This document shows, one piece after another, positions 12,714 to 18,298 of a stretch of 64,000 bases of DNA. Each line of letters begins with the position of its first letter. The first letter of the stretch is position 1. This DNA comes from Bacteroidota bacterium (GTDB lineage Bacteria > Bacteroidota > Bacteroidia > UKL13-3). Made by a program: the position numbers and the translations under genes. Location of the stretch: positions 124,001-188,000 of the forward strand of contig JAIXWI010000029.1 in the NCBI GenBank assembly GCA_027491355.1, written 5' to 3'. The notes beneath the pieces were generated by a model that was not told where the DNA came from, ran no database searches, and saw only the letters and a list, made by a program, of their open reading frames with translations.

Positions 12714-14768
12714 ATGAAAATAAAACAATTCATGTTGATTTCTACATTAGCTGCAGGAACAATGATGTACAGCTGTTCTTCTAACCAGAACAAAGCGCAT
12801 GACCATGACGATTTTGATGTAAACTGTGACCAGTTTGCAGATTTACAAGTATTACGTTACCAGATTCCAGGATTTGACGAGTTGACGCCAAAACAAAAAG
12901 AATTGGCTTATTACTTATATGAAGCCGCCAATGCCGGTCGTGATATTATTTACGACCAAAACAATAAAAACAATTTATTGGTACGTAAAACCATCGAGGC
13001 CATTTTTGAAGCAAATCCTAAACACGAAGCAACAGAAGATTGGAAAAACTTTGAGATTTACGCCAAACGCTTTTTCTTCTCTAACGGTGTTCACCACCAT
13101 TATTCAAATTTAAAATTTGTACCTGCTTGCAGCTTTGAGTTTTTTGCTGATTTGGTAAAAAAATTAGATCCTGCAAAATTACCAGTAAGTGGTAAAACTG
13201 CTGATGAGTTTTTGGCAATGATCAAACCCATCATTTTTGATAGCAATTTTGAAGCAAAAAAAGTTGATTTGGCATCAGGCATAGACAATGTGGCTGCTTC
13301 GGCAAACAATTTTTACGAAGGTGTTACGCAAAAAGAAGTAGAAGATTATTACAATGCGCGTATCAAGAAAGACGATACCGAGCCTATTTCATGGGGATTG
13401 AACAGCAAAATGACCAAAGTAGATGGCAAAATTGTTGAGCAAGTTTGGAAAGTGGGTGGCATGTATTCAGCAGCCATTGAAAAAATTGTTTACTGGTTAG
13501 AAAAAGCTGCAAGTGTTGCTGAAAATGACAAACAGAAAAAAGCCCTAGATTTATTGGTTGAATATTACAAAACTGGTGATTTAAAAAAATGGGATGAGTA
13601 CAATATTGCATGGGTAAACGATACTGAAAGCAGATTAGATGTGGTGAATGGTTTCATTGAAGTGTATGATGATGCCATTGGTAAACGCGCCAGCTTTGAA
13701 TCGGTGGTTTCTATTAAAGACATGGAAGCAACCAAAAGAATTGCAACAATTGCAAAAGAAGCACAATGGTTCGAAGACAATTCACCTATTGCAGCTGAAC
13801 ACAAAAAGAAAGAAGTGAAAGGTATCACTGCAAAAGTGATTACTGTAATTCAAGAATCAGGTGCAAGCGCACAATCAACCCCAATTGGAATTAACCTTCC
13901 AAATGCAAACTGGATTCGTCAAAAACATGGTAGCAAATCTGTTTCATTGGGAAATATTGTTCATTCCTACAATATTGTTGGCGCAAAAAGCCCAGTATTG
14001 AAAGAGTTTGCTGAAAACGAAGCTCAAATTGCCAGAGCTAAAGAATATGGCTCATTGGCAGGTGATTTACATACAGACATGCACGAAGTAATTGGACATG
14101 CAAGTGGTCAAATCAACAAAGGTGTTGGAGATCCAGATCAAACTTTGAAAAACTATGCAAGTACACTAGAAGAAGCGCGTGCCGACTTAGTTGCATTGTA
14201 CTATGTTTTAGACCAAAAACTGGTAGATATTGGGGTGATGCCAAGTTTAGATTGTGGTAAAGCTGAATATGATGGCTATATCATGAATGGTTTGATTACA
14301 CAATTGACCCGCTTGAATATAGGCGAAAACTTGGAAGAAGCGCACATGCGTAACCGCCAATTGAATGCCAAATGGGCTTACGAAATGGGTAAAAAAGACA
14401 ATGTGATTGAGTTTATCAAACGTGATGGCAAAACTTATGTAAAAGTAAATAACTACGAGAAATTACGCGATTTATTTGGCCAGTTATTGAAAGAAATTCA
14501 AAGAATTAAATCCGAAGGCGATTACAAGGCTGCAACGGCTTTAGTAGAAGGTTATGGTGTAAAAGTTGACCAAGAATTATTGAAAGAAGTAAAAGAGCGT
14601 TTCAACAAATTAAATGTTGCGCCATACAAAGGATTTATCCAACCAAAATTGGTTCCTGTCATGCAAGGTGAAAACATGGTAGATGTAAAAGTTGAATACC
14701 CGAACGATTTCCTTAAAAACCAATTGGAGCAAGGCAAAAACTACGGCTTGCTTCCTGTTAAAAACTAA
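12714..14768 (+). CDS. Dipeptidyl-peptidase III-like (M49) lipoprotein
   Basis: HEVIGHASGQ (HExxxH) with downstream EEARADLVALYY; lipobox MMYSCSS. Confidence 0.88.
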   Translation: MKIKQFMLISTLAAGTMMYSCSSNQNKAHDHDDFDVNCDQFADLQVLRYQIPGFDELTPKQKELAYYLYEAANAGRDIIYDQNNKNNLLVRKTIEAIFEANPKHEATEDWKNFEIYAKRFFFSNGVHHHYSNLKFVPACSFEFFADLVKKLDPAKLPVSGKTADEFLAMIKPIIFDSNFEAKKVDLASGIDNVAASANNFYEGVTQKEVEDYYNARIKKDDTEPISWGLNSKMTKVDGKIVEQVWKVGGMYSAAIEKIVYWLEKAASVAENDKQKKALDLLVEYYKTGDLKKWDEYNIAWVNDTESRLDVVNGFIEVYDDAIGKRASFESVVSIKDMEATKRIATIAKEAQWFEDNSPIAAEHKKKEVKGITAKVITVIQESGASAQSTPIGINLPNANWIRQKHGSKSVSLGNIVHSYNIVGAKSPVLKEFAENEAQIARAKEYGSLAGDLHTDMHEVIGHASGQINKGVGDPDQTLKNYASTLEEARADLVALYYVLDQKLVDIGVMPSLDCGKAEYDGYIMNGLITQLTRLNIGENLEEAHMRNRQLNAKWAYEMGKKDNVIEFIKRDGKTYVKVNNYEKLRDLFGQLLKEIQRIKSEGDYKAATALVEGYGVKVDQELLKEVKERFNKLNVAPYKGFIQPKLVPVMQGENMVDVKVEYPNDFLKNQLEQGKNYGLLPVKN

Positions 14769-14852: not shown

Positions 14853-15338
14853 TTATTTTTTAGTGGCAAATACAGAGTAGGTATAGCCAGTGTATGGACC
14901 TTCAATCATCTCATAGCTGTAAATAACAACTTTTTGCGCAGCTTGAAAGGCAAACTGTTCATCGTTTGCACCTTTCCCTCTGATTGAAACTGTTTGTCCG
15001 CTTATCTTTCCAGTTTGAGTTGGAATAATGCTGTAGAAGTTATTACCTGAAACTACAATTGCATCTGTTGTAATGGTAATTCCATCCTCTGTTATGGTTA
15101 CAGAATTGCCAGCGCCTTTGGCAATCACAAATGTAGTAGTAGTATCATAGACAGTATTTCCTGCTGTATCTTTAATGTTTGCATTACCAGTATAGGTTCC
15201 TACAGCTAAATCGCGCACATCGGTTTGTGTAGATGCAGGCGTAGCAGTTTTGTTGTCTTTTGAACAACTTACAAAAGTGAAGCAAGCTACAACAGCAGCA
15301 AGTACAAAGAATGAATAAATTGGTTTTAAATGTTTCAT
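14853..15338 (-). CDS. Putative lipoprotein of unknown function
   Basis: Lipobox CFTFVSCSKDNK; beta-rich small secreted domain. Confidence 0.65.
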   Translation of the reverse strand: MKHLKPIYSFFVLAAVVACFTFVSCSKDNKTATPASTQTDVRDLAVGTYTGNANIKDTAGNTVYDTTTTFVIAKGAGNSVTITEDGITITTDAIVVSGNNFYSIIPTQTGKISGQTVSIRGKGANDEQFAFQAAQKVVIYSYEMIEGPYTGYTYSVFATKK

Positions 15339-15968: not shown

Positions 15969-16071
15969 GTTTTGTTTACAATTTCAAACGAAACTAATTC
16001 TCACAATACCAATGCCTGTAGCTTTCTTCCAAACAGTTTGTTTCAATTACCCAAAACAGCATATGAATCTC

Positions 16072-16827
16072 CTAGCCAAACAATGTGGTGTTCCTGAACC
16101 ATTCTATCAATTTATTCTTTGAGCGATCTGTTATCGCAACAATTAGTTGTCCTGTTAACTCCAATGAATTGCCTTGTTGTTTGATAAACTGCTTTACATG
16201 CGCAGGATTGATCATCCACGACCGATGTACCCTAAAAAATCCTTCTGGCGATAACAATTTATCTATCCAAGCCAAAGGCTTACTGATAATGATTTTACCT
16301 TGCTCTAAAGTGTAAATCACACAATAACTCCTTTCGGCTTGTATGGCAATGATGTCTTTTAATTTAACCAATATCTGTCCGTTGGAAACAGGCAATGCAA
16401 TTGCTTCAATAGCGCTTTTACTGACATCATCTAGCATAGATTGGTATTGGTTCATGTATTGTGGCTCTAACTTACGTCTTCTGTGCAATGCAATTTCAAT
16501 GCTCTCTTTTAAGCGCTTATTTGAATAGGGTTTCATAATGTAATCCACTGCATAAAACTCAAATGCCTTGATGGCAAAATCTTGGTTACCGGTTATAAAT
16601 AACAATTGCTTGCCCTCAAGTGGAATGTCTTTGAGTGCGTTAAAAACCGGGACCCCATTAATCAGAATATCTAAAATTGCCAAGTCAAAATCTCCATTTT
16701 TAAGAACTTTCTTTGCAGCATCAAAATCACGTACACCCAAAACCTCAAATTCAGAGAATTCTTTCTTTAGAAATTCCATTAAACCTGCCAATTGTGCTGG
16801 CTCGTCCTCAATAATTAAAACCTTCAT
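16072..16827 (-). CDS. LytTR-family DNA-binding response regulator
   Basis: REC domain (VLIIEDEPAQ, LAILDILI, ITG, DYIMKPYS) plus LytTR domain (LVKLKDIIAIQAERSYCVIYT...FFRVHRSWMINPAHVKQF). Confidence 0.93.
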   Translation of the reverse strand: MKVLIIEDEPAQLAGLMEFLKKEFSEFEVLGVRDFDAAKKVLKNGDFDLAILDILINGVPVFNALKDIPLEGKQLLFITGNQDFAIKAFEFYAVDYIMKPYSNKRLKESIEIALHRRRKLEPQYMNQYQSMLDDVSKSAIEAIALPVSNGQILVKLKDIIAIQAERSYCVIYTLEQGKIIISKPLAWIDKLLSPEGFFRVHRSWMINPAHVKQFIKQQGNSLELTGQLIVAITDRSKNKLIEWFRNTTLFG

Positions 16828-17495
16828 GCGCTTGTTTTTGCAATGCTCAACACCAATTCATTTCCCTCTATTTGAATTGCTTTTAAATAGTTACAACCAA
16901 AATAATGGTTAAAATAACTCAACCTGTTTTTAAGACTGTATAAACCATGACCCATTTTAGGATATTTGATAACCTCATTTTGAGGCAAATCGTAACCACT
17001 CAAAGAAACCCTCATTGAAAAATAATTCGAACTGATATTTATATTTATCTGCTGACTATCTGATTGTACAAATCCATATTTCAAAGCATTTTCAACCAAT
17101 ACTGCTAGAGAAAAAGGAGCAATTTTATTGTACAAATCAGTACCTTCTACCTCTAAATGGATTTGAATATTAGACTGATGAATTCCATTGTGGGCAGCTA
17201 TGAGTTCGTTACAGCATGCCAATTCTTGAGCAATTGAAATGGCTAATTGATGCTGTTGTTTGTACACATAATTTACTATGGTACCTGTATTTGAAATAAA
17301 CTGTTGTAAATTGTTATGACCTGATTGATACGATATATTCTGCAACAAATTATTTAAAGTATGTTGGGATAAAAACCTACCATTCATAAAATATTGACTT
17401 TTTTGGTAGTAATCTCCAAACATGAGTATAACAAAGCATAAAAATAGCAGTAAATAGGGATTGCTATTGGAGGTAAAAAAAGTTTCAGTAAGCAT
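16824..17495 (-). CDS. LytS-type sensor histidine kinase, short, no large sensor domain
   Basis: H-box-like SQHTLNNLLQNIS, N-box LAVLVENALKYGFV, G-box MGHGLYSLKNRLS; 4-nt overlap with the LytTR gene. Confidence 0.85.
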   Translation of the reverse strand: MLTETFFTSNSNPYLLLFLCFVILMFGDYYQKSQYFMNGRFLSQHTLNNLLQNISYQSGHNNLQQFISNTGTIVNYVYKQQHQLAISIAQELACCNELIAAHNGIHQSNIQIHLEVEGTDLYNKIAPFSLAVLVENALKYGFVQSDSQQININISSNYFSMRVSLSGYDLPQNEVIKYPKMGHGLYSLKNRLSYFNHYFGCNYLKAIQIEGNELVLSIAKTSA

Positions 17496-17568
17496 TTCCG
17501 AAAATAAGTTAAAAAAACACTTGGTTAGGGATAAAGATTTCCGAAAACAGGTTATTAATTTCCGAAAA
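17494..17568. promoter_or_regulatory. Triple direct repeat ATTTCCGAAAA (candidate LytTR operator array)
   Basis: Exact 11-mer at 17494-17504, 17537-17547 and 17558-17568; start-to-start spacing 43 and 21 bp. Lies in the divergent intergenic region of the LytS/LytTR operon and a PorT-like gene. Confidence 0.6.
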
Positions 17569-17659
17569 TGGTAAATTTACTTTTAGGATATAAATCAGTT
17601 TCATGTAAACAATAATTCAAAAAGAAACAGCTAATTTTATGCCACCAATCTACTGCGCT

Positions 17660-18298
17660 ATGAAAAAAATCAACTTATTGATCCTCTTCCTTGCAACTAC
17701 AACATGTTTAAATGCACAATCTCTAGAATTTGGATTGAAAGCTGGAATGAATACTGGGAAATCTCAAATCAATGAATTGAGCAGTTATTCGTTTTCAAAT
17801 AACGAAACTACCATTTTACAAGCTGGTGTTTATTCTCAATTTAAAATTTGGCTGATTGGCACCTATATACAACCAGAATTGTTGTTAACACGTAGAACCA
17901 ACTCAATGGAAATTAAAGGCATCCTGAACAGTGGGAGTCCTCAAGCCAGTGCTACAGTCAAAAGCAATGATTTGTACTTGAATGTTCCAATTTATATTGG
18001 TAAACAATTTTTTAAACTGTTCAGGGTATACGCTGGTCCTAACTTTCAAATTTTACTCGATCCACAAACAAGTTTACCTGAAAACGCAGACCTGCTCAGC
18101 AAAACCGAAATCAGTAAGTTTATCACTGGTTTTGCTGTAGGTGCGGGATTGAACATTTTAAAATTTAGGGCTGATATCCGATGGGATTATTCGGGTAATT
18201 TGGGTAGTCATATTCAAATCAATCAAAACCTTCAACCTACCCTAAGCAATGGTATGATTTCAATTCAATTAGGTTACAAACTATTTGGCACATTGTAA
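17660..18298 (+). CDS. PorT-family outer membrane beta-barrel protein
   Basis: MKKINLLILFLATTTCLNAQ signal peptide; SLEFGLKAGMN...; start re-assigned to ATG 17660. Confidence 0.78.
   Translation: MKKINLLILFLATTTCLNAQSLEFGLKAGMNTGKSQINELSSYSFSNNETTILQAGVYSQFKIWLIGTYIQPELLLTRRTNSMEIKGILNSGSPQASATVKSNDLYLNVPIYIGKQFFKLFRVYAGPNFQILLDPQTSLPENADLLSKTEISKFITGFAVGAGLNILKFRADIRWDYSGNLGSHIQINQNLQPTLSNGMISIQLGYKLFGTL

Follow-up and report, generated by a model that had tools for sequence, protein, structure and literature searches.

The window (the whole 64,000-nucleotide stretch of DNA analyzed in this study) carries a cluster in which a LytS-like kinase gene, a gene for a response regulator, a gene for an exported probable beta-barrel protein and a putative lipoprotein gene are located on the minus strand, divergent from an OMP gene. 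The DNA upstream of the kinase start contains a pair of repeats, and a weaker pair of the same kind lies between the regulator and the barrel gene (Table 1).

Table 1. Coordinates of the genes and of the observed and predicted sites at the locus
Feature	Position	Strand	Remarks
Putative lipoprotein, last gene of the cluster	14853..15338	-	Signal peptide, VSCSKD lipobox-like motif; present in four relatives
Exported probable beta-barrel protein, 201 aa	15363..15968	-	3' of the regulator in five relatives
Second candidate operator-promoter, TTGGGTAAT-N12-TTTGGAAGA-N28-TAGTTTCG	15989..16054	-	In the regulator-barrel gap; weaker than the first
Response regulator, receiver + LytTR	16072..16827	-	Pfam LytTR 5e-15, Response_reg 1.7e-13; FFRVHRS motif
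LytS-like kinase gene, divergent	16824..17495	-	Weak His_kinase PF06580 match, below cut-off, in 6/6 orthologues
Copy 1, probably no half-site	17494..17504	+	-7 box plus start codon; genus-restricted
Putative -7 box of the kinase promoter, TATTTTCG	17499..17506	-	Within copy 1; assignment inferred
Proximal half-site TTCGGAAAT (copy 2)	17537..17545	-	21 bp from the distal half-site; kept in 7/7 loci, usually as TTAGGAAAT
Distal half-site TTCGGAAAT (copy 3)	17558..17566	-	Kept in 7/7 orthologous loci; degenerate TTAGAAAAC in G017
Second conserved intergenic element, AGCTAATTTTATGCCACC (also given as AGCTAATTTYATGCCACC)	17629..17646	+	Exact core at the locus

Genes of the cluster

The regulator has the receiver-LytTR architecture of a LytS/LytTR two-component system, and the LytTR contact motif FhRhHRS is found in it as FFRVHRS. 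Orthologous regulators are present in 7 of the 66 genomes in the family, these seven spanning five genera; identity is 80–91% in five other family genomes and 44% in one (G017). Between genera the regulator is 80–82% identical, compared with 64% for MurB (G033), and yet it is patchily distributed; horizontal transfer or strong constraint may lie behind this combination.

The kinase evolves much faster than its partner, with an identity of 37–62% against 81–91% for the regulator in the same five-genome comparison. A phosphoacceptor-like histidine (H45) and an ENALK box are invariant in the orthologues, which match PF06580 only below cut-off, and no DxGxG-type ATP-binding (G1) box was seen when it was looked for in them. 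Taken together, these features suggest that the protein may be a degenerate LytS kinase. The predicted structure of the probable beta-barrel protein is strand-rich and of low confidence; its mean pLDDT of 53.7 does not permit a fold search. A sequence search of the PDB gave mostly receiver domains among its matches, and an Rfam scan of the window found no RNA families. In G033, a fragment upstream of the kinase (L042, 4879–5151) shares 69% identity across 91 residues with the C-terminal end of the window's peptidase-like gene (12714–14768), a sign of rearrangement around the cluster.

Repeats upstream of the kinase gene

A sequence-only reading of this DNA had drawn attention to three identical copies of the 11-mer ATTTCCGAAAA on the plus strand, at 17494, 17537 and 17558, with start spacings of 43 and 21 bp. 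The copies are exact and far above chance: among 60 order-3 Markov windows there was none in which an 11-mer occurred three times inside 80 bp. Only two stretches in the whole window show such a triple, the other being A-rich and located near position 2000. Moreover, three of the eight copies of ATTTCCGAAAA in the genome (2.44 Mb) are at this locus, which also has the single exact pair at 20–22 bp found genome-wide.

Read on the kinase strand, copies 2 and 3 take the form TTCGGAAAT-N12-TTCGGAAAT, followed 28–30 bp further on by a -7-like box of the Bacteroidota type. They lie exactly 21 bp apart in all seven orthologous loci, including the one whose regulator is 44% identical (G017). Alignment of the upstream regions in the kinase sense gives one sharp block in 7/7 loci, made up of distal TTCGGAAA and proximal TT(A/C)GGAAAT with a 21-bp period, in which some of the seven loci have single changes. 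The intergenic DNA of Bacteroidota is A/T-rich and could in principle give rise to such a pair by chance; however, the Markov result and the retention of the pair in seven genomes, although the flanking DNA diverges, leave this explanation with a negligible probability.

The pair is also rare. When whole genomes were searched for TTTCCKAA-N13-TTTCCKAA with at most one mismatch (six genomes, G076 being left out), the site upstream of the kinase was the sole match in five of the six (G000, G001, G004, G033 and G017). The remaining genome, G007, has three matches, one of which is the site at the kinase; its kinase gene is divided between two contigs, and the pair is on the contig piece that carries the kinase start. 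The match in G017 means that the motif search alone leads to the operon, although the regulator there is only 44% identical.

It is documented that LytTR proteins bind direct or inverse repeats of 9–11 bp separated by spacers of 11–13 bp, with no common consensus (PMC4847170), and that in LRS operons such repeats precede the promoter by a few bp (PMC6193735). The pair has half-sites of 9 bp and a spacer of 12 bp at all seven loci, lies 28–30 bp 5' of the predicted -7-like box, and is adjacent to a LytTR regulator encoded in the same operon. Its conservation, fixed 21-bp spacing, rarity and location with respect to the -7-like box make it very probable that copies 2 and 3 are operator half-sites. 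We place somewhat less confidence, a probability of about 0.82, in the full statement that they are LytTR operator half-sites bound by the adjacent regulator, which most likely activates its own operon. Two molecules of the response regulator would occupy TTCGGAAAT-N12-TTCGGAAAT on the same side of the double helix, at a separation of two turns. LytTR operators themselves are already known; the pair is a candidate new one.

The proximity of a regulator gene is no proof that its product is the binding protein, and the pair might serve a different, unlinked transcription factor. We consider this highly unlikely, in view of a pair that is nearly unique in the genome, accompanies the regulator in 7/7 genomes across genera, and has a spacing that is both typical of LytTR sites and enriched beside other LytTR genes (see below).

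Predicted promoter architecture and probable direction of control

The distance from the proximal half-site to the -7-like box is 30 bp in the three loci of the same genus, which have TATTTTCG, and 28 bp in the four other loci, which have GTAATTCG, TTAATTCG or TTTCTTCG. The boxes are imperfect, with TTCG in place of TTTG, and no clear -33 element was seen at the expected position upstream of them. In the window, the kinase ATG follows three bases after the box; with this arrangement, the mRNA in this genus would be leaderless or begin inside the gene.

Copy 1 overlaps the kinase start codon, as the sequence-only reading had noted, and is best read as the putative -7 box plus the ATG. It is absent outside the genus, and in two of the three same-genus genomes one base is changed: these two relatives retain TATTTTCG and have a different base of copy 1 altered, and the other four keep the -7-like part only. 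Because the -7-like part is kept while the remainder is changed or lost, copy 1 probably resembles the motif through this overlap and does not represent a third operator. One may still suppose that the three copies form one array, in which the copy spanning the -7 box and the start codon autorepresses once the upstream pair is full and which also controls the divergent OMP gene. Copy 1 is exact in the window, 43 bp is about four helical turns, and CoxC represses from three repeats across a -35 box (PMC11347149), all of which would fit. We nevertheless find such an array quite improbable, given the fate of copy 1 in the relatives, where the -7-like part persists, and the displacement or loss of the OMP gene outside the genus.

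With regard to this divergent gene, the upstream MPP frame is not retained in relatives, which places the likely start at 17660 (signal peptide MKKINLLILFLATTTCLNA) and not at 17639. Copies 2 and 3 therefore lie ~92–123 bp upstream of the start, and not at the -33 region of a PorT-like gene as had been proposed. Moreover, the OMP gene adjoins the pair within the genus only. A gene of 30% identity to it starts ~530 bp from the kinase start in G033, and G076 and G017 have other genes at its position; the pair, in contrast, remains with the kinase. Control of the OMP gene by the repeats is thus not supported. What stands of the proposed autoregulatory operator array is an operator-like pair for the operon of the adjacent regulator, based on conservation, rarity and the -7-like box; an array of three copies is not supported. 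The second conserved intergenic element (Table 1) has an exact core only at the kinase locus in G000, G001, G004, G076 and G007, despite differing downstream genes, and its distance to the 21-bp pair differs by ~21 bp between genera. It is perhaps a divergent -7 region.

If the regulator binds the pair, it would be positioned just upstream of the -33 position, with the end of the operator 28–30 bp from the -7-like box, and would most likely activate the kinase-regulator operon in a positive feedback. Activation, and not repression, is most likely the mode of control by analogy with known autoregulated LytTR operons, which likewise have no good -33 element. LytTR proteins are able to repress, as CoxC does (PMC11347149), and the pair could be a repressor-type operator through which the regulator switches off its own operon. 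We regard this as unlikely, in that the pair is located upstream of the -33 position rather than across the promoter, and in that a good -33 element is absent, as in autoactivated LytTR operons (PMC6193735).

The system is close to LytTR operons of the LRS-like kind in Bacteroides, two of which have ACCGGAAATCA-like repeats that precede TATCTTTG (PMC6193735). In these operons (Btheta7330_RS19915/RS19920 of B. thetaiotaomicron; PMC6193735, Table 3), direct repeats likewise lie 5' of the regulator's own operon and 5' of a Bacteroidota TAnnTTTG box, and the half-site ACCGGAAATCA is close to TTCGGAAATCT of the present operon. The suggestion of a possibly new binding specificity thus has to be narrowed; a wholly new one is not supported, since TTCGGAAAT on the kinase strand is close to ACCGGAAATCA (PMC6193735). 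These Bacteroides operons differ in having 11-bp repeats, an 11-bp spacer (22-bp period) and a distance of 34 bp between repeat and -7 box, and the regulator in them is a membrane protein with an NfeD/DUF2154 protein as its neighbour, whereas here a soluble receiver-LytTR protein is encoded beside a kinase (PMC6193735). An LRS has a dedicated membrane inhibitor in place of a phosphosignalling partner; the present regulator has a receiver domain and a kinase-like partner. We therefore liken the promoter to an LRS promoter in its putative mode of working and do not class the system as an LRS.

Other known systems share part of this arrangement. YpdA/YpdB of E. coli is a LytS/LytTR system with two direct repeats GGCATTTCAT, an 11-bp spacer and a 21-bp period, but it has another half-site and its described target is yhjX, not its own operon (PMC4847170). 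AgrA of Staphylococcus aureus is a LytTR protein with an FhRhHRS-type contact motif that binds two direct repeats upstream of its own-system promoters, and differs in half-site and signalling kinase (quorum sensing) (PMC4227749). CoxC of Afipia carboxidovorans binds, through its LytTR domain, three direct repeats at 18–21-bp intervals, two helical turns apart, but is a one-component repressor acting across the -35 box (PMC11347149). Our searches of the open-access literature gave no report of LytS/LytTR operators in the present lineage, and predicted LytTR operators for Bacteroidota only for the Bacteroides LRS-like operons (PMC6193735).

A second site and the 21-bp spacing at other loci

The sequence-only account does not mention the 21-bp pair before the barrel gene, which lies 28 bp from a putative -7 box. 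In a scan of the seven regulator-barrel gaps with a matrix trained on the kinase-promoter repeats only, a spacing of 21 bp was the best in G000, G004, G001 and G017; taken singly, the gaps of G033, G076 and G007 did not have it as the best spacing and were not significant alone. Summed over the seven gaps, 21 bp scored 52.6 and the next spacing 23.5. In a whole-genome search for the full layout with at most two mismatches, perfect matches were confined to the second promoter of G004, that of G001 and the counterpart in G017, and in the genome of the window the second site was the best match, with one mismatch; the layout was derived from the same loci, so that this search shows rarity and is partly circular. 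This weaker copy of the same layout points to the barrel and lipoprotein genes as a probable second target of the regulator.

The spacing extends beyond the orthologous loci. An out-of-sample set was made up of the noncoding DNA that flanks 88 LytTR genes of Bacteroidia not orthologous to the present one, and was searched for direct 10-mers at least 9/10 identical, with the other spacings as control; separate control loci were set aside, as they were biased by retrieval with 21-bp patterns. Repeats at 21 bp occurred in 22 of the 88 loci, while the other spacings from 15 to 60 bp averaged 2.0 loci and reached 7 at most. In the gaps directly beside the regulator, 16 repeats had the 21-bp spacing and the other spacings averaged 0.6; as the loci are treated as unrelated, Poisson values for these gaps are indicative only. 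Among 66 TAnnTTTG boxes on the regulator strand, nine had a 21-bp repeat, matching at 8/9 or better, that ended 24–33 bp upstream; 15 other spacings together gave three. The only enriched spacing was 21 bp, and half-site sequences varied between loci. One spacing survey also peaked at 14, 28 and 35 bp, which is at least partly due to short-period repeats in single loci, e.g. L139. The noncoding DNA of the window outside the locus contained no repeats (a small sample of 3 kb).

A CGGAAAT-like motif general to LytTR genes was considered and rejected: pairs at 20–23 bp gave one match beside 24 unrelated LytTR genes, so that only the spacing, and not the motif, is general. Of sixteen upstream regions of other LytTR paralogues in the family, most are preceded by long genes and contributed nothing to the footprint. 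We lean towards the view that Bacteroidia LytTR regulators commonly have a private operator beside the regulator gene, its half-sites nearly identical and exactly 21 bp apart and the nearer one ~28 bp 5' of TAnnTTTG, at an activator-dependent promoter. Bacteroidota are rich in LytTR regulators, most of the genomes surveyed having 3–25 LytTR matches. If such a grammar holds across the class, the motif of each regulator, and hence its regulon, would be readable from sequence alone; with operators findable by spacing, motifs and targets could be assigned to LytTR regulators and promoters chosen for direct tests. At L021/L141 and L071/L215, two unrelated LytTR regulators are directly followed by exact 21-bp repeats (GGTACAAAA and CTGATAATC half-sites) with a TAnnTTTG box ~27–30 bp beyond them, which makes these loci good test cases.
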